DNA of 33,706 nucleotides, from positions 1-33,706 of the IMG/VR virus record IMGVR_UViG_3300043436_001123. The stretch is one strand, 5' to 3'. A model generated the notes under the pieces. The model was not told where the DNA came from, did no database searches, and saw only the letters and a list, made by a program, of their open reading frames with translations. Of this stretch, positions 17,229 through 33,706 are shown piece after piece. Position 1 is the stretch's first letter. Each line of letters opens with the position of its first letter. The DNA is from a virus. Made by a program: the position numbers and the translations under genes.

Positions 17229-17759
17229 TTAAAACACCATTCCTTCAAACTTGCCGCCAGGCAAAAAATCACTATTTCCTATTTCTCTTTTATTTGTTTT
17301 AATTTCTTTTCCTTTGTTATGTTTGTTATTTTTTGTTATAACAACATTTGAGTTTGTTATAGCATTGTTATTAGATGCCCATCTGGACTGCATTCCAGCC
17401 TTACCGGCTGTGCTTCTTTTTTCTGAAATTTCTTCCCTTTTTTCAAAGTTTCGCAAAACACGTTTTGAAATAATAAATTCAGAATCTTCTAAAAACAACT
17501 CACAAACTTCAGTTGCATAATTTATAACAAGTTCAATTTTGTTATCGTTTGTTATAAGTTGTTTAGCAAGTGCTATAAAAATGTATTTCTTTTTAGGAAT
17601 TTTATGCTCTGGGTTTGAGTGCAACATTTCAATAATGCGCCAATAAATACCATAACCCTCCGCTCCATATTCTGCAATTAAAGCAGCTATTTTTGGATCG
17701 CTGGTAGGCTCATAATCATGAGCAAAATAGTAAGATTCTTTTGTATTATTTTTATTCAT
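17229..17759 (-). CDS. DUF4373 / Lin1244-like replication-associated protein
   Basis: 176 aa. The N-terminal domain (YYFAHDYEPTSDPKIAALIA, YGAEGYGIYWRIIEMLH) is the signature of the DUF4373 or Lin1244/Lin1753 N-terminal domain. This winged-helix-like fold is found in phage replisome organisers. A SEKRSTAGKAGMQSRWAS segment follows (about 110-127), again typical. The C-terminus is Asn/Lys-rich and disordered, which fits a flexible linker for recruiting the primase-helicase encoded just upstream. The start ATG 17759 lies exactly 8 nt after a strong hairpin (17768-17803). Confidence 0.8.
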   Translation of the reverse strand: MNKNNTKESYYFAHDYEPTSDPKIAALIAEYGAEGYGIYWRIIEMLHSNPEHKIPKKKYIFIALAKQLITNDNKIELVINYATEVCELFLEDSEFIISKRVLRNFEKREEISEKRSTAGKAGMQSRWASNNNAITNSNVVITKNNKHNKGKEIKTNKREIGNSDFLPGGKFEGMVF

Positions 17760-17850
17760 AAAATATAAAAAGGGTCTTGCAAGTAGTGCTGCAAAACCCT
17801 TTTAAATTGTGATAATTAAAACCACTTCTCCCGCACTACCAAGTGAAGTG
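17760..17850 (-). ncRNA. Tandem-hairpin element with complementary loops, copy A
   Basis: On the plus strand, hairpin 1 is AAAAGGGT-C-TTGCA (17768-17781) with TGCAA-A-ACCCTTTT (17790-17803), an 8-bp plus 5-bp stem with an 8-nt loop (17782-17789). Hairpin 2 is CACTTC (17823-17828) with GAAGTG (17845-17850). The loop of hairpin 1 contains GTAGTGC (17783-17789) and that of hairpin 2 contains GCACTAC (17833-17839), perfectly complementary over 7 nt. In the transcript hairpin 2 comes first; hairpin 1 is followed by a T-rich run and then the start codon of the DUF4373 gene. It fits an intrinsic terminator or attenuator with a kissing-loop option. The strand is assumed from gene direction. Confidence 0.55.
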
Positions 17851-17879
17851 ATTATTAATATAAAGATAAATAATATTAT

Positions 17880-19628
17880 TTATATTTCTGTATATTTTCT
17901 GGTTAATAAATCGTATGTAAATGATGTGTAGCCAATGCGGCCATGAAATGAAAACCTAACCTTTTGGCAATAAACGGTAACAATACCTTTGTTCGTATCC
18001 CGATGAATAGATAAACCATTATCAGCCTTATTAAAGAAATGCGCACTGCCTGCAACATCGTAAAGGGTAGCCGGTGGATATTGCCCCGACTGATCCTTTT
18101 GCAACTTTCTCGGATGTGCTACAATGAAAACATGAGTATCTGTTTTTACTGCAAACTCTTTTATTAAAGTTAAGGCCTCACTTATGTATTGTGTTTCTGA
18201 ATAGCCTTGCGGTATCTTATGTTCGATGTAATTCCAAGGATCAATAACAATACCTTTAACGCCTGTTTTCTTTACTACCTCAATAAGTTTTTCAATTATA
18301 CCTTGAATAGTTACATCAACTTGTGCAATGTTTATAAAGCTAAAATAATCATCTGTGAGCAAAATACTTTCTTCAAACTCAGCTTTGTTTATCCGATGGC
18401 TTGAGTCCTTTCTAAAGTTAAATGATTTGCCGATAAACTTTTCCATCAATTTAGTAACGTGAATAGCTGTAGGATTTTCAAATGAGCAAACAGAAAACTT
18501 CCAATTGTGGAATCTTGCAAGTGATGTAATAATGTAATCAATAAATTCACTTTTACCGCTACCAGGTGCGCCAGTTACAATAGTAACCAATCCACCGGCA
18601 AAGGTTAATAGTTCATCAAATTCCCCTATGCCAGCATTGCAGCCTTTTGGATAACCATTCATGTAATAATCTAAAACGGTATCGTAAACATCCTCAACGG
18701 TAATGATGCCATCAATAGGCCAGCGTTTAACTGTTTCTATCATAGTGTGCAGCATTTGCTTGCCATACTTTAAAAGCACATCGTTTGCATCTTTGCAATC
18801 GTTTGGGTATTCTATTTTATAGCAGCGATCACGGCCTAAGCGACGTGATATTTCATCTCTCAAATTGTTTCCTGGTTCATCATTATCAGTAAATAAAATA
18901 ATGCGTTCCTTATCTTCGAAATGATGCCAACAATTATCTAAATACTTTAATTGTTGGGTGCCGGTTCCTGCCCCGTTTGGAACGCTTACAACATTATAAA
19001 TGCCAGCTTCATGCAATGAAAGGCAGTCTATCTCACCTTCGACTATAATGGCTGTAGATTCATCTTTGATGCTGTCTAAGTTATAAAATATCAATTCGGC
19101 ATCTTTTGCCAATTTAAAGTCTTTATCTTTTGCTCTAAATTTAATATTAACTAATTCGTTTTCGTTGTAGTAATTAAAACAAATAGTTGGTACTTCAGTT
19201 TGTGCTTTTGGCATCCATTCAACAGATTCAGTAATATTCATTCTAAGTAATGTATTATTACTTATACCCCTTGTTTCAAAGTATTTTATTGTAGATGCAG
19301 AAAGTTTTTCCAAACGCGGCAAAGGTTTTTGATATTCCTTTTTATTATTTTGTACTTCGATGTTGTACTTTTTAGCTATCAACTTTATTGCAGAAATGTA
19401 ATCTGTATTTTCATGCTCCATTATAAATGCAATAGCATCGCCGGACTTTCCACAGCCAAAACATTTATAAATACCTTTTGCTTTGCTTACTTTAAACGAT
19501 GGTGTTTTTTCTTTATGAAATGGGCAAAGGCCTACCATTTCGGTAGCTTCCTTTTTTAAATTAACATAAGCAGAAATAATATCTACAATGTCGGCTTTAT
19601 GCTTTATTTCTTCGATGTTCGTTATCAT
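17880..19628 (-). CDS. DNA primase-helicase (CHC2-Toprim-RecA-like)
   Basis: 582 aa. A zinc-binding CHC2-type domain comes first, with CPFH (35-38) and CFGCG (56-60). A Toprim domain follows with VEGEID (196-201) and TDNDEPG (247-253), the metal-binding Glu and Asp-x-Asp. The C-terminal DnaB-type helicase has Walker A GAPGSGKS (353-360), a Walker B-like GIVIDPWNY, and VFIVAHPRK. This is the T7 gp4-like single-chain plan: it unwinds DNA and makes primers. No phage DNA polymerase is visible in the window, so the host polymerase is probably recruited. The start ATG 19628 overlaps the HNH gene stop (ATGA). Confidence 0.92.
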   Translation of the reverse strand: MITNIEEIKHKADIVDIISAYVNLKKEATEMVGLCPFHKEKTPSFKVSKAKGIYKCFGCGKSGDAIAFIMEHENTDYISAIKLIAKKYNIEVQNNKKEYQKPLPRLEKLSASTIKYFETRGISNNTLLRMNITESVEWMPKAQTEVPTICFNYYNENELVNIKFRAKDKDFKLAKDAELIFYNLDSIKDESTAIIVEGEIDCLSLHEAGIYNVVSVPNGAGTGTQQLKYLDNCWHHFEDKERIILFTDNDEPGNNLRDEISRRLGRDRCYKIEYPNDCKDANDVLLKYGKQMLHTMIETVKRWPIDGIITVEDVYDTVLDYYMNGYPKGCNAGIGEFDELLTFAGGLVTIVTGAPGSGKSEFIDYIITSLARFHNWKFSVCSFENPTAIHVTKLMEKFIGKSFNFRKDSSHRINKAEFEESILLTDDYFSFINIAQVDVTIQGIIEKLIEVVKKTGVKGIVIDPWNYIEHKIPQGYSETQYISEALTLIKEFAVKTDTHVFIVAHPRKLQKDQSGQYPPATLYDVAGSAHFFNKADNGLSIHRDTNKGIVTVYCQKVRFSFHGRIGYTSFTYDLLTRKYTEI

Positions 19629-20194
19629 AATTTAGGGGATAAAATGTCTAATAAATCGGATATTTCATTTAATAATTTATTGCTTTTTTTAATATTGCAA
19701 GTTTTGCAAAGCAACTGTAAATTTTCAATGTTTGAACCTCCACCTTTTGAATATGGATGTATGTGATCTATTTCAAGTTTTTCCCTTGATCCGCAATAAT
19801 TACAAGTACTTTTAAATCTTAAAAAAACCTCATACTTTGTTTTATTACAAATGTATCTTGATGCTTTTGGTAATTCAACAACCGGAAGTTCTTTGTTATT
19901 TATAAATCTTATAACATCATTTGGAATATTTAAATATTCAGTTACAGGTTCTTGCCATGCAGAAGGCATCCAAAAAAACAAAGTAAATATATTTTTTTTG
20001 TGTTTTGCAACATAACAAATGTTACCGTCCATTGTTATTCTAATTGCACCATTTAAATAAATACGATACTCGTCTATTGTATCATAAATACCTTCATTTG
20101 CAAAAAATTGCCATTTGTTAGAATAAGTGGGAATGTGTCTTTTAAAACCATTTTGTTCAATGTAGTTAATGAACTCATTATTTTGTATTGTCAT
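19625..20194 (-). CDS. HNH endonuclease
   Basis: 189 aa from ATG 20194. An upstream ATG at 20215 lies inside a hairpin and would add MMPIFYF, so it is unlikely. The HNH core is at the C-terminus: CNYCGS (131-136), LEIDHIHPYSKGGG (141-153) and CKTC (163-166). The two Cys-x-x-Cys pairs hold structural zinc and His144 is in the catalytic position. The first 110 residues (YSNKWQFFANEGIYDTIDEY, FFWMPSAWQEP) are not a domain I recognise and may bind DNA. It separates the VRR-NUC nuclease from the primase-helicase and is AT-richer than its neighbours, consistent with a mobile free-standing endonuclease. Its leader carries a tandem-hairpin element. Confidence 0.85.
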   Translation of the reverse strand: MTIQNNEFINYIEQNGFKRHIPTYSNKWQFFANEGIYDTIDEYRIYLNGAIRITMDGNICYVAKHKKNIFTLFFWMPSAWQEPVTEYLNIPNDVIRFINNKELPVVELPKASRYICNKTKYEVFLRFKSTCNYCGSREKLEIDHIHPYSKGGGSNIENLQLLCKTCNIKKSNKLLNEISDLLDILSPKL

Positions 20195-20297
20195 AAAATA
20201 AAAAATGGGCATCAAGTGTAAGGAGTTTACTTGAGCCCATTTAAATAATCAAAAATGAAAATTCAATCTGCTGCTCCTTACTTCAACTGATTGAATT
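20195..20297 (-). ncRNA. Tandem-hairpin element with complementary loops, copy B
   Basis: On the plus strand, hairpin 1 is AAATGGGC-AT-CAAGT (20203-20217) with ACTTG-A-GCCCATTT (20229-20242), an 8-bp plus 5-bp stem with an 11-nt loop. Hairpin 2 is AATTCAATC (20260-20268) with GATTGAATT (20289-20297), 9 bp with a 20-nt loop. Loop 1 holds GTAAGGAG (20218-20225) and loop 2 holds CTCCTTAC (20274-20281), complementary over 8 nt. Hairpin 1 ends 8 nt before the HNH start codon, followed by TTTATTTT. The design is the same as copy A but the stems and loops differ in sequence. In the minus transcript the hairpin-1 loop reads CTCCTTAC, an anti-Shine-Dalgarno-like sequence. Confidence 0.55.
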
Positions 20298-20359
20298 GTT
20301 AAACAAATATACTAAATAATAATTAAATCTTGTGGTTTCTTCAGTAGGGTTTTTCGGAA

Positions 20360-21175: not shown

Positions 21176-21463
21176 TTATAAACAGTTTTCTGTTAATTTG
21201 TATAAATGATCATGCCATTGATCCCATGTAACACTTGATCCAAGAACGCCTTTATTTGCTTCATCTCCAATTAAATTATATTGCATTTTTTTACAAACTG
21301 CCCAAACATTATGCCAATGAATTTCTTTGTGCTTTGCCTCTTCATTTTTCATTTTAGCATATTCTTGTACTTCTATTAATCCAGGTTCTATTTCTAAAAT
21401 TTGTTCAATAGTTAATTTTGTAGAATCAAAATTTTCAAGTGCTTCAATAGTTGTAAAGTTCAT
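21176..21463 (-). CDS. Hypothetical 95-aa protein, first gene of the leftward operon
   Basis: 95 aa, AT-rich, not recognised. It is mainly helical and acidic (TIEALENFDSTKLTIEQILE), with a Trp/His-rich middle (HKEIHWHNVWAVCKKM) and VTWDQWHDHLYKL at the end. The ATG at 21463 is preceded by AAAACAAAATAAA, the A-rich leader seen in front of other genes. As the first gene after the divergent control region it would be expressed very early. Possible host-takeover or regulatory protein; no motif supports either. Confidence 0.6.
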   Translation of the reverse strand: MNFTTIEALENFDSTKLTIEQILEIEPGLIEVQEYAKMKNEEAKHKEIHWHNVWAVCKKMQYNLIGDEANKGVLGSSVTWDQWHDHLYKLTENCL

Positions 21464-21553
21464 TTTATTTTGTTTTAGTTAGATTGCAATACTACAACTT
21501 TTTATTTATAAAATAAATTTTTTTGTATCAACAAAGATACATAACATTGCAAA
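21464..21553. promoter_or_regulatory. Divergent control region, left half, with operator O1
   Basis: It holds the inverted repeat GTATC-aacaaa-GATAC (21525-21540). On the minus strand TATCTTTG (21539-21532) is a perfect match to the Bacteroidota -7 element TANNTTTG, but no TTTG lies 19 nt upstream of it. On the plus strand TAACATTG (21542-21549) is a one-mismatch -7 element with TTTT 19 nt upstream, only 4 nt before the ATG of the 53-aa gene. The operator overlaps the minus-strand -7 element and lies between the plus-strand elements. The rest of the stretch is an AT-rich leader for the leftward operon. Confidence 0.55.
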
Positions 21554-21715
21554 ATGAAGATACATAAGAACATAACAATAACCGAGGCCGCACAATTAAC
21601 GGGCAAAAGTAATAGCACTATCAAAAGCATTTGCAACGGTAACCGATCAAATACCGTTGGTATATTTAACCATCGCAAGATTGCTGGCGTTTGGTTTTTA
21701 TCAATAAAAATATAA
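21554..21715 (+). CDS. 53-aa helix-turn-helix regulator
   Basis: A short frame from ATG 21554 to TAA 21715. The protein starts MKIHKNITITEAAQLTGKS and continues SNSTIKSICNG, then FNHRKIAGVWFLSI. It has the layout of excisionase/MerR-type HTH proteins: 'ItEAAxLtGks...tIks', then a wing with 'hrkiaGvWfl'. It is flanked by two identical operators (GTATC-N6-GATAC), which suggests that it is the local transcription switch and represses or activates both directions. The predicted plus-strand -7 element ends only 4 nt before the ATG, so the mRNA may be leaderless. Confidence 0.6.
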   Translation: MKIHKNITITEAAQLTGKSNSTIKSICNGNRSNTVGIFNHRKIAGVWFLSIKI

Positions 21716-21776
21716 ATTTGTTTGTATCGAATAAGATACTATCTTTACACTTTATAACAATTTAAAACAAAACAAC
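21716..21776 (+). promoter_or_regulatory. Rightward early promoter with operator O2
   Basis: TTTG (21717-21720) and TATCTTTA (21740-21747) are separated by exactly 19 nt, the Bacteroidota sigma-ABfr spacing (TTTG-N19-TANNTTTG), with one mismatch in the last base. The inverted repeat GTATC-gaataa-GATAC (21724-21739) lies between the two elements, where a bound protein would block RNA polymerase. The leader ends with TTTAAAACAAAACAAC directly before the ATG at 21777. Confidence 0.7.
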
Positions 21777-21968
21777 ATGACAACACAAATTGCAAATTTA
21801 ACCGACAGCTTCACTGAACAACTAATGTTTTTACACAAACAATCTGTAGCCTGCCTTCGCATGATTATGATTGCTGAAGATGAAATCGAACGCAACCGAT
21901 GGGTTTCTGAATACACAGACAATCAAATCGAATTACTTAAACTTCAACAAGTAAACCACGCACTATGA
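21777..21968 (+). CDS. Hypothetical 63-aa early protein
   Basis: 63 aa, helical and hydrophilic (FTEQLMFLHKQSVACLRMIM, then RWVSEYTDNQIELLKLQQ). No motif or membrane segment is recognised; it may form a small helical bundle. It is the first gene after the best promoter in the window and overlaps the next gene by 4 nt (ATGA), so it is probably abundant early after infection. Function unknown. Confidence 0.6.
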   Translation: MTTQIANLTDSFTEQLMFLHKQSVACLRMIMIAEDEIERNRWVSEYTDNQIELLKLQQVNHAL

Positions 21969-31723: not shown

Positions 31724-32518
31724 TTATCTGTATAAGAATATAAAGTTTTCGCCACCCACACCAACGACATCGCCCGTAGGTAATGTAACAACACCGCTCA
31801 CAATCTGTATAAAGTCAGGGTTTGATGTTGTTGATGTAGTTACTACTTTGCCTAATCCCGAACGAGTACAAGCCAACACAACGCGCCCAACTAATTGTGG
31901 TATTGTAAACGTGCTTATACCGGCTGCCGCTGTGTAGTATATTGGCAATGCGTTTGCATCGCTGCCACCGTTGCCGTATTGTTTACCATCTTCTGGCTTG
32001 AAGTATCTGCCCAAAAATATTGGCGATGTATAAGCGCGGGTAACTGGAAAGATTACATCAACACCACTACCAGGGTTTAAATAAGTGTAGTGCTTTTGGT
32101 AGTTTTCTTGTAGGTACTTAATCATGCGGGTTGCATAATATTCGCCATGCTTTTTGTAGCGTTCCTCAAGTAGTTCCAAATCCCCTCGGCTTGGCGTGTT
32201 GCTTTCTTCAGCACTCTTTTGTAAGAAACCTTTGCTAAATAATTGGTAACCCATGCCAATAGGTAGCATGGCCATTGTGAACCAAATGATAGTATCAGTA
32301 ACGTAATCGTTTAACAAATCTAATTCATCGGCGTTCAAATTGTTTGCAACGATGCCTTCTTGCAAACGTAAATACAAACCGCTTCCCAAAATAGGCTGCA
32401 CTTGTTGATCTTGCGCTAACTTTATGAACGGCTTTACGGCTGTAAAATCTATGGCCGCCGACATCGGGAGCCGCGCCTTTAAAGTCTTTTCAGTTATGAA
32501 TAATACGTTGTTGCTCAT
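31724..32518 (-). CDS. Head-tail adaptor (DUF6712-like) with C-terminal beta domain
   Basis: 264 aa. The helical N-terminal part (MSNNVLFITEKTLKARLPMS, IKLAQDQQVQPILGSGLYLR) followed by LNDYVTDTIIWFTMAMLPIG matches the adaptor family of Bacteroidota phages (DUF6712, as I recall), functionally like HK97 gp6. After RMIKYLQENYQKHY the C-terminal 110 residues are a separate beta domain (PQLVGRVVLACTRSGLGKVV). It joins portal and tail. It starts inside the end of the portal gene (4-nt overlap). Confidence 0.7.
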   Translation of the reverse strand: MSNNVLFITEKTLKARLPMSAAIDFTAVKPFIKLAQDQQVQPILGSGLYLRLQEGIVANNLNADELDLLNDYVTDTIIWFTMAMLPIGMGYQLFSKGFLQKSAEESNTPSRGDLELLEERYKKHGEYYATRMIKYLQENYQKHYTYLNPGSGVDVIFPVTRAYTSPIFLGRYFKPEDGKQYGNGGSDANALPIYYTAAAGISTFTIPQLVGRVVLACTRSGLGKVVTTSTTSNPDFIQIVSGVVTLPTGDVVGVGGENFIFLYR

Positions 32519-33706
32519 TTCTTTCTTATTACAATGTTAGCTTTCCAAGTGTGTCTGCAAAATGGTCTGTGTTCGCCGTTCGGTAATGTAAACCAACCGC
32601 CGCGTCTATCCCATACAGAATACCCCAAACGCTTGCTTATATTCTCAATATCTACGCGGCTGTATATTTTATTCAATTCTAATAATCGCGCGCAAAATGG
32701 GCGGTTTCTGTCATCTTGTGGCCCTTCGTATGAATAGCGAACTAACACTTGTGTAACGGATGGCTTTTGATCTGTAATCTTTGACAAGGGTTGTACTAAC
32801 TTTCTTTCTATGATTGTGTCCGCGCCCTCTTGCTGTGTTGAAACAGATATTAACCCTGCTTTCTCGATGGCTTTCAATACAGCGTTCACGCTGCGTAATT
32901 CAACGCCCAACACATCCGCTAAAACATCTGGCGTTATACGTTTGTCCTTACTGATTAAGTCCATCACATTCGCCTGTAATTGCGTCAAATCAACTTGTTC
33001 AGCAAAGTACATCGCTTCTGTTGCTGGCTCACTATGCACAACCTCAAATTCATTTACATCACACCCACACGCGGCAAACTCTGCTAACAATATTTCATCT
33101 TCTGTTTGCGAACTGAATTTTAAATCGTCAGTGGTCGGATCATCGTCAAGTCCTAAGTATTGGTTTATTTGGTCATCGGTAAACCCAAACGCTTGTAGCT
33201 GTATTGCAGCTTGTTGCTTAGTTAGTTTACCTTGAGAAAACAAACGCACAATCCTCATAAGTTGCTGTTGTTGGCGGCCGCTTAAATTAACGAGGTTGCT
33301 ATTTAGTTGTGCTTCCGCTTCGGCCGGTGCTGGCATACTTCCAACAACGCCACCAGCTGGCACCAACCCTGCTAAACTTCTTATTTCATCCGCACTCATT
33401 GCCTCAAGTACCTTAGCCGCTACCGCTGGAGAAAGTGCGTTAATATTATCGTTAATTATTTGAGCCGCTGTTTTGGTTGTTTCTTCTGCTTCTTCCCTAC
33501 CCATCAATTCGCGAATCTCATCCTTTGTCAAATTCTGCGAAACAATCGCTTCACTAAACTCAAACCCTAACGGCTCGACTGGTACAATTACCATTTCAAT
33601 CGGCTGTGCTGTGTATGACTTCAACCATGTGAAGTTCATGTCATGTATCATTTGCCTTTTGGCCACATAGGTATTGTTGAAAATCTCGTATGCTTCGCGG
33701 ATTTCA
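32515..33706 (-). CDS. Portal protein, C-terminal part with MuF-like tail
   Basis: This is the continuation of the frame that starts at 1035; codons 346-699 run from 33579 to the stop at 32515. The bases 33580-33706 repeat 1-127. After the wing/stem part (LTKDEIRELMGREEAEETTK) there is a helical region (RQQQQLMRIVRLFSQGKLTK) and a winged-helix-like segment (ITPDVLADVLGVELRSVNAV). The C-terminal 65 residues have DDRNRPFCARLLEL, WDRRGGWFTLPN and HRPFCRHTWKA. These conserved Cys, His and Arg are those of the Mu-F-like minor head domain. The domain is thus fused to the portal, which explains why no separate MuF gene is seen. Confidence 0.8.
   Translation of the reverse strand, partial: EIREAYEIFNNTYVAKRQMIHDMNFTWLKSYTAQPIEMVIVPVEPLGFEFSEAIVSQNLTKDEIRELMGREEAEETTKTAAQIINDNINALSPAVAAKVLEAMSADEIRSLAGLVPAGGVVGSMPAPAEAEAQLNSNLVNLSGRQQQQLMRIVRLFSQGKLTKQQAAIQLQAFGFTDDQINQYLGLDDDPTTDDLKFSSQTEDEILLAEFAACGCDVNEFEVVHSEPATEAMYFAEQVDLTQLQANVMDLISKDKRITPDVLADVLGVELRSVNAVLKAIEKAGLISVSTQQEGADTIIERKLVQPLSKITDQKPSVTQVLVRYSYEGPQDDRNRPFCARLLELNKIYSRVDIENISKRLGYSVWDRRGGWFTLPNGEHRPFCRHTWKANIVIRKK
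33580..33706. repeat. 127-bp terminal repeat, right copy (circular join)
   Basis: Identical to 1-127. It marks the closure point of the circular map and should be counted once. Confidence 0.95.

Follow-up and report, generated by a model that had tools for sequence, protein, structure and literature searches.

The Guanidine-II (mini-ykkC) riboswitch consists of two tandem leader hairpins held in loop-loop contact, with short, fixed ACGR loops, and is associated with guanidine-related genes. Loop-loop kissing is also part of the control exerted by the pT181 repC attenuators, in which an intrinsic terminator lies in the leader just upstream of the replication-initiator gene and both an antisense RNA and an anti-terminator arm are needed (PMC4878617). 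The RNAI/RNAII pair of ColE1 and CopA/CopT of R1 use kissing loops carried by different RNAs from opposite strands, and an internal loop just below the kissing loop is a feature of such natural regulators (PMC4878617). Among phages, the T4 gene 32 operator is a single pseudoknot of ~28 nt in a 5′ leader without a terminator, followed by an unstructured, UUAAA/UAAA-rich start region; it is recognized by the single-strand binding protein (SSB) that the gene encodes, and the homing endonuclease gene segG adjoins it (PMC535899). The putRNA of phage HK022, a leader RNA of ~70 nt with two stem-loops just downstream of the promoter, suppresses distant terminators by binding RNA polymerase and has been described as V-shaped with an RNA triplex (PMC9378689).

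Here we report an apparently undescribed class of structured leader RNAs that head replication operons in a wide range of Bacteroidota phages. It can be classed with leader RNAs that contain a pseudoknot and a terminator, and it probably acts as an RNA switch, not described before, that controls viral replication. To our knowledge, little is known of how replication is regulated in such phages. The window analysed, a viral record of 33,706 nt with promoters of the Bacteroidota type, carries two copies on its minus strand (Table 1). The initial annotation had described tandem hairpins with perfectly complementary loops, and these are present as proposed, with GTAAGGAG and CTCCTTAC matching over 8 nt in element 1 and a match of 7 nt in element 2. 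Its further observations, that a T-rich run fills the 8 nt between the start-proximal hairpin and the start codon and that a second element repeats the plan with other bases, also hold, and across the whole family the shape is kept while the bases change. Read 5′ to 3′, hairpin B of element 1 is AAATGGGC TCAAGT AAA CTCCTTAC ACTTGA T GCCCATTT, and its loop is AAACTCCTTAC.

Table 1. Features of the two leaders in the 33,706-nt window, and loci of one hairpin B subtype in other sequences
Feature	Position	Strand	Remarks
Element 1, whole	20203-20297	-	tandem hairpins with complementary 8-nt loop stretches
Element 1, -7 promoter box TATATTTG	20304..20311	-	exact TAnnTTTG match; 6 nt upstream of hairpin A
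Element 1, hairpin A (5′ hairpin)	20260..20297	-	9-bp stem AATTCAATC/GATTGAATT, 20-nt loop with GTAAGGAG; from fold and scans
Element 1, kissing sequence 1 GTAAGGAG, loop of A	20274..20281	-	perfect complement of 20218-20225
Element 1, AU-rich linker, A to B	20243..20259	-	17 nt
Element 1, hairpin B, terminator-like	20203..20242	-	8 bp AAATGGGC/GCCCATTT plus inner 5-6 bp with one bulge
Element 1, kissing sequence 2 CTCCTTAC, loop of B	20218..20225	-	perfect complement of GTAAGGAG
Element 1, U-tract TTTATTTT	20195..20202	-	8 nt, hairpin B to ATG
HNH endonuclease (PF01844), first gene of leader 1	19625..20194	-	ATG at 20194; primase-helicase next
DnaG-type primase/DnaB-like helicase, leader-1 operon	17880..19628	-	
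Element 2, whole	17768-17853	-	plan as element 1; 7-nt complementary loops
Element 2, -7 box TATCTTTA	17861..17868	-	5/6 consensus positions
Element 2, hairpin A	17820..17853	-	9 bp; 17859-17815 when extended in fold
Element 2, kissing sequence 1 GTAGTGC	17833..17839	-	
Element 2, hairpin B, terminator-like	17768..17803	-	14-15 bp; from fold; listed by consensus terminator scan
Element 2, kissing sequence 2 GCACTAC	17783..17789	-	
Element 2, T-rich run TATATTTT	17760..17767	-	8 nt from stem to ATG at 17759
Lin1244_N (PF14297) DnaD-like replication initiator, gene of leader 2	17229..17759	-	
GGGGAUGG subtype loci	L007:950-973, L015:2152-2173, L024:1261, L091, L113, L117, L124, L150, L205:7798		

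The collection examined comprises 38 elements with 36 different loop pairs; their sources are viral contigs, a single prophage and named phages that infect Flavobacterium, Cellulophaga, Tenacibaculum and Olleya. The common plan is a -7 box, hairpin A, an AU-rich linker, hairpin B, a U-tract and usually a start codon, with 69-141 nt (mostly 80-95) from A to B and kisses of 5-10 nt (mostly 6-8). The start codon lies 5-24 nt after B in 35 of the 38; in JQ, phi10:1 and sniff9-1 it is found ~40 nt beyond B. Loop A of one element rarely matches loop B of another: complements reach 6 nt or more in just 3.8% of combinations, and copies within the same phage have no such complement longer than 5 nt.

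The Bacteroidota -7 consensus is TAnnTTTG (PMC7366714, PMC9723704), and in Flavobacterium it occupies positions -12 to -5 (PMC9723704), which would place the first nucleotide of the RNA close to the base of hairpin A. Exact matches to the consensus occur upstream of A in 22 of the 38 elements, as compared with 5.6% expected, and none was found on the antisense side of any of the 38. Matches at five or more of the six positions are present in 32 of 38, a level expected by chance in 52% of elements, so that only the exact matches count as evidence. The stems hold 93 G.U pairs versus a single A.C mismatch. In 34 of the 38, folding is more favourable for the sense strand, a comparison in which a small bias is possible because the scans used sense-strand energies. 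Together, the excess of G.U pairs and the sense-strand folding indicate that the structure works as RNA on the gene-sense strand.

Several structural variations were observed within this plan. In one subtype of hairpin B, an invariant internal loop (GGGGAUGG, kiss, CCUGAACC) lies just below a fully paired loop of 6-7 nt and looks like a structural module. This GAUGG/CCUGAAC internal loop may resemble a GNRA-tetraloop receptor, a point on which paper searches gave nothing usable, or else the flexible interior loop of natural kissing regulators. Several B hairpins outside the subtype (L008:4901-4976, L213 and L223) carry UGAAC or CGAAAC in the 3′ arm too, hinting at an internal-loop motif in common. 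A third small hairpin is found within the linker of some elements (L003:4948-4966, L010, L011, L015:625-645, L033 with GTTTAACCACTCGTTAAAC, and L035), where it would even out the effective length of the linker.

Both leaders of the window fold better than shuffled sequences (z -3.4 to -5.5). A joint scan that combines the kiss, two hairpins, the T-run and the -7 box (scores <= -36/-32) finds 0.2-0.4 matches per Mb-strand in shuffled phage DNA, and in the window (0.067 Mb-strand) it finds two, with scores of -38.5 and -36.8. A looser geometric scan that admits G-U pairs in the stems is not discriminating by itself, as shuffles give ~1.5 matches per window. Because this loose scan is weak inside the window, the statistical case rests mainly on comparative evidence, and primase relatives indeed show a like anatomy written in different letters. 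When sites were chosen blind to the kiss, by a hairpin, a T-rich stretch and an ATG, loop complements of at least 7 nt were observed in 11 cases versus 0.54 expected from swapping upstream regions, and a scored form of the test gave 17 observed versus 1.2 expected. Likewise, the kiss-blind DNA motif GGGGATGG N4-12 CCTGAACC has 15 distinct T-tailed matches, 14 of which carry a kiss of at least 6 nt, versus 4.6% after swapping.

Covariation was assessed in nine elements of the motif subtype, using an alignment in which the excised A hairpin is joined to the B loop. All 11 pairs considered (the A stem and six kissing pairs) are 100% paired, with 37 double-change cells and double changes in 9 of the 11; no shuffle comes near this result, and slid controls are 26-39% paired. 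Rows of the alignment were drawn from perfect-kiss matches, but nearly all T-tailed matches have a kiss, and the selection bias is therefore small. A compensated change of C-G to U-A also distinguishes the related phages sniff9-1 and elemoA (GTGAGACG/CGTCTCAC, GTGAGATG/CATCTCAC). The initial annotation had named a lack of compensatory changes in related phages as grounds for giving up the structure, and many such changes were found.

Hairpin B has the attributes of an intrinsic terminator. Nearly all of the 38 B hairpins have predicted energies of about -9 to -35 kcal/mol, and a T-rich run follows the stable, GC-rich stem immediately. Two plain terminators of the window phage score 3.98 and 4.29, below the median tail score of 4.97, which 0.4% of random positions reach. 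Of the two elements in the window, a consensus terminator scan reports only element 2; the 11-nt B loop of element 1 is above the limit of the scan. Adenine at -3, which favours translation in Flavobacterium (PMC6847099), is present in 10 of 35 leader genes versus 22 of 30 other genes of the window. That the U-tract is kept despite its cost to the translation start favours a terminator.

Among the 38 leaders, neither arm of B showed an alternative antiterminator pairing (mean z -0.21 and -0.05 versus shuffled leaders, with z < -2 in 3 and 0 of 38), making a classic two-state attenuator unlikely. With neither such a pairing nor an exact box on the antisense side, control by an antisense RNA and a classic anti-terminator are both unsupported. 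The loop-loop contact is compatible with a closed B and might only stabilize this hairpin.

Other features were noticed elsewhere in the window. Plain intrinsic terminators without a kissing partner lie at 1405-1433 and 2005-2035 on the minus strand, ~10-14 nt upstream of start codons in the late gene region. A strong hairpin pair with complementary GTTGTTGG/CCAACAAC is present at 33240-33368 (minus strand) inside the open reading frame 32515-33666, lacks a T-run or promoter of the leader type, and is probably a coincidence. Where the minus- and plus-strand gene blocks diverge, a region of 500 bp (21463-21965) contains TAnnTTTG-like boxes, and no kissing leader was found there.

The genes behind the leaders are mostly replication genes, encoding primase-helicases, DnaD-like or Lin1244-like initiators, 750-aa proteins resembling primases, and DUF3127-like SSBs, or an HNH gene followed by a primase or SSB gene; most gene names outside the window come from sequence resemblance or record annotation. 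Leaders before SSB genes or HNH and SSB pairs are found in L123 and in the sniff/tooticki group. The initial annotation had placed the element in front of the HNH gene; a tie to that gene was rejected because relatives carry the leader directly before a primase or DnaD-like gene with no HNH gene, and the leader belongs to the replication operon. Of the proposal that kissing in the minus-strand transcript gates termination or ribosome binding through an AAGGAG core, the kissing and a link to termination are supported, and the kiss may gate termination. Shine-Dalgarno gating is not supported, as the core is specific to element 1 and its relative (L005), and Bacteroidota mRNAs lack Shine-Dalgarno sites (PMC6847099). 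In JQ, phi10:1 and the sniff group, a protein of 70-78 aa comes first behind the leader. These proteins (L211:36091-36327, L213:10381-10599, L214:14118-14330) have a common C-terminal motif around D.(S/P)TA.(R/K), and the family is a candidate regulator of the leader.

Whole-locus scanning and a test in the replication regions of named phages found the leader in Tenacibaculum phage JQ (with a 10-nt kiss), Olleya phage Harreka_1, Cellulophaga phages phi10:1, phi19:1, phi19:3 and phi13:2, and Flavobacterium phages sniff9-1, tooticki6-1, hattifnatt9-1 and elemoA. In these named phages it lies nearly always in the gap preceding the replication genes, and in the sniff group also before the HNH and SSB genes. 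A Saprospiraceae prophage (L205) has two elements, and a representative in Nekkels_1 has weaker geometry and is doubtful. Within the near clade of related primases (at least 49% identity), the leader was found in ~27 of 34 loci, 23 of them called by script and four (L024, L027, L029 and L030) added by eye, and in the far primase clade in 1 of 24 loci by script call only. The element was not found in the replication regions of RAP44, a Porphyromonas phage, Flavobacterium phage 1/32, a putative faecal phage scaffold (L228) and the Enterococcus control EF62phi, and the joint scan gave no clear case in PJN03.

A chromosomal element was rejected, since a model of the B-hairpin subtype (R1, whose inner pairing is slightly misregistered) recovered only the known prophage and one weak match (E 0.009) from 395 Bacteroidota genomes; likewise, 30 genomic Lin1244_N loci in Bacteroidota genomes carry no element. 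Searches with the covariance models of Rfam 15 at gathering thresholds gave no match at or near the elements in the window, in eight viral loci or in eight named-phage loci, where only tRNAs were reported. We found no describing paper in a search of the open literature. These results agree with the initial annotation, which knew of no phage element of this form. Both the family and its design, a tandem pair of hairpins that kiss each other, with a terminator-like second hairpin, at the head of phage replication operons, appear new.

The sequences show that the RNA is paired, on which strand it lies, where its promoter is placed, that its 3′ end resembles a terminator and which genes follow it. 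From these findings we infer termination at B in vivo, an effect of the kiss on this termination and the existence of a trans-acting factor. The reading that we favour, at about even confidence, is that of a cis-acting leader RNA of Bacteroidota phage replication operons, in which B would be an intrinsic terminator and the kiss would tune termination or read-through. Host RNA polymerase would start at the TAnnTTTG promoter just before hairpin A, and the first 70-140 nt of RNA (mostly 80-95) would fold into hairpin A, the linker and hairpin B, with the loops pairing over 6-10 bp. As B and the U-tract would form an intrinsic terminator directly before the first gene, polymerase would meet a stop signal ahead of the replication genes, and expression of the operon would need read-through past B. 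Loop A may catch the loop B sequence as B emerges, before this hairpin closes, and so set its termination efficiency, which a phage or host factor recognizing the kissing complex could adjust. With its own loop sequence, each copy in one genome would avoid cross-pairing with the other.

The main rival is an operator like that of T4 gene 32. A phage replication protein, either a single-strand binder or an initiator, would recognize the kissing pseudoknot, spread over the unstructured U/A-rich stretch and cover the start codon. The replication-operon context throughout, the leaders before SSB genes, and the HNH genes behind some leaders, recalling segG beside the T4 operator, are all in keeping with such translational autoregulation. 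We nevertheless consider it unlikely, as the U-tract abuts a GC-rich stem in the style of a terminator, a placement that a protein platform would not need; moreover, most leaders precede primase or DnaD-like genes rather than SSB genes, and the T4 operator is one small pseudoknot rather than two hairpins. The other chief rival besides T4-like autorepression is a passive 5′ structure that stabilizes the mRNA, wherein the kissing complex would shield it from ribonucleases and keep the coding sequence from pairing with the start region. The promoter box ends a few nucleotides before A, so the 5′ end should be paired, and the start region is unstructured in folds. However, the conserved U-tract, the poor start context and the prevalence in mainly replication operons would all be left unexplained, and we regard this possibility as quite doubtful.

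It is improbable that the element is a small RNA gene in its own right, with promoter, structure and terminator, whose product has host or phage targets in trans and whose place beside the replication genes is incidental. It does resemble a complete transcription unit of ~100 nt with predicted promoter and terminator, but the proximity of the start codon in 35 of the 38 leaves no space for another promoter, and the loops change freely between phages, which a target site in trans would not allow. We give very little credence to an element that functions as DNA, such as a replication origin or a single-strand hairpin site. Its inverted repeats beside replication genes would fit this role, whereas the strong asymmetry between the strands (G.U pairs in place of A.C mismatches, and a one-sided T-run and promoter box) and the occurrence of two copies per genome on different operons do not.

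A more speculative form of the terminator reading, to which we assign only a slim chance, is a self-referring sensor of copy number. Terminated leaders would accumulate with genome copies and kiss nascent leaders in trans, or dimerize, thereby switching termination of their own operon. Loop A of one molecule would pair with loop B of another, and the differing loops would keep the feedback of the copies separate. Such a sensor would need no antisense strand, unlike every plasmid system of this kind that we know of. Cultured carriers (Flavobacterium sniff9-1 and elemoA, Cellulophaga phi10:1 and phi19:3, Tenacibaculum JQ, and Olleya Harreka_1) make the leader class directly testable, and the freely changing, always matching loop pairs constitute natural orthogonal kissing parts.

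Among known systems, the tandem hairpins most readily call to mind the Guanidine-II riboswitch, which resembles the leaders in its two hairpins and their loop-loop contact. Unlike its fixed loops, those of the leaders vary freely (36 distinct loop sequences in 38 elements), and no Rfam family matches, so that this and other known riboswitches or RNAs were rejected. In HK022 putRNA the two stem-loops lie downstream of an early phage promoter, those of the leaders behind a predicted promoter, and the leaders may also act on termination; in contrast to put, their second stem-loop is itself terminator-like and the loops pair. As in the T4 gene 32 operator, a predicted pseudoknot is followed by an unstructured start region of a phage replication gene, sometimes with an endonuclease gene nearby, but the leaders combine two hairpins with a putative terminator. 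The GGGGAUGG subtype, with its fully paired loops and the internal loop just below, shares this feature with ColE1 RNAI/RNAII and R1 CopA/CopT, whereas the loops here lie in tandem on one strand. Like the pT181 repC attenuators, the leaders place a predicted terminator between the promoter and a replication gene and include a kissing contact, although the kiss forms within one RNA. As neither an anti-terminator nor an antisense promoter was found, the leader departs from the pT181 and CopA/CopT designs, although it resembles both in parts.
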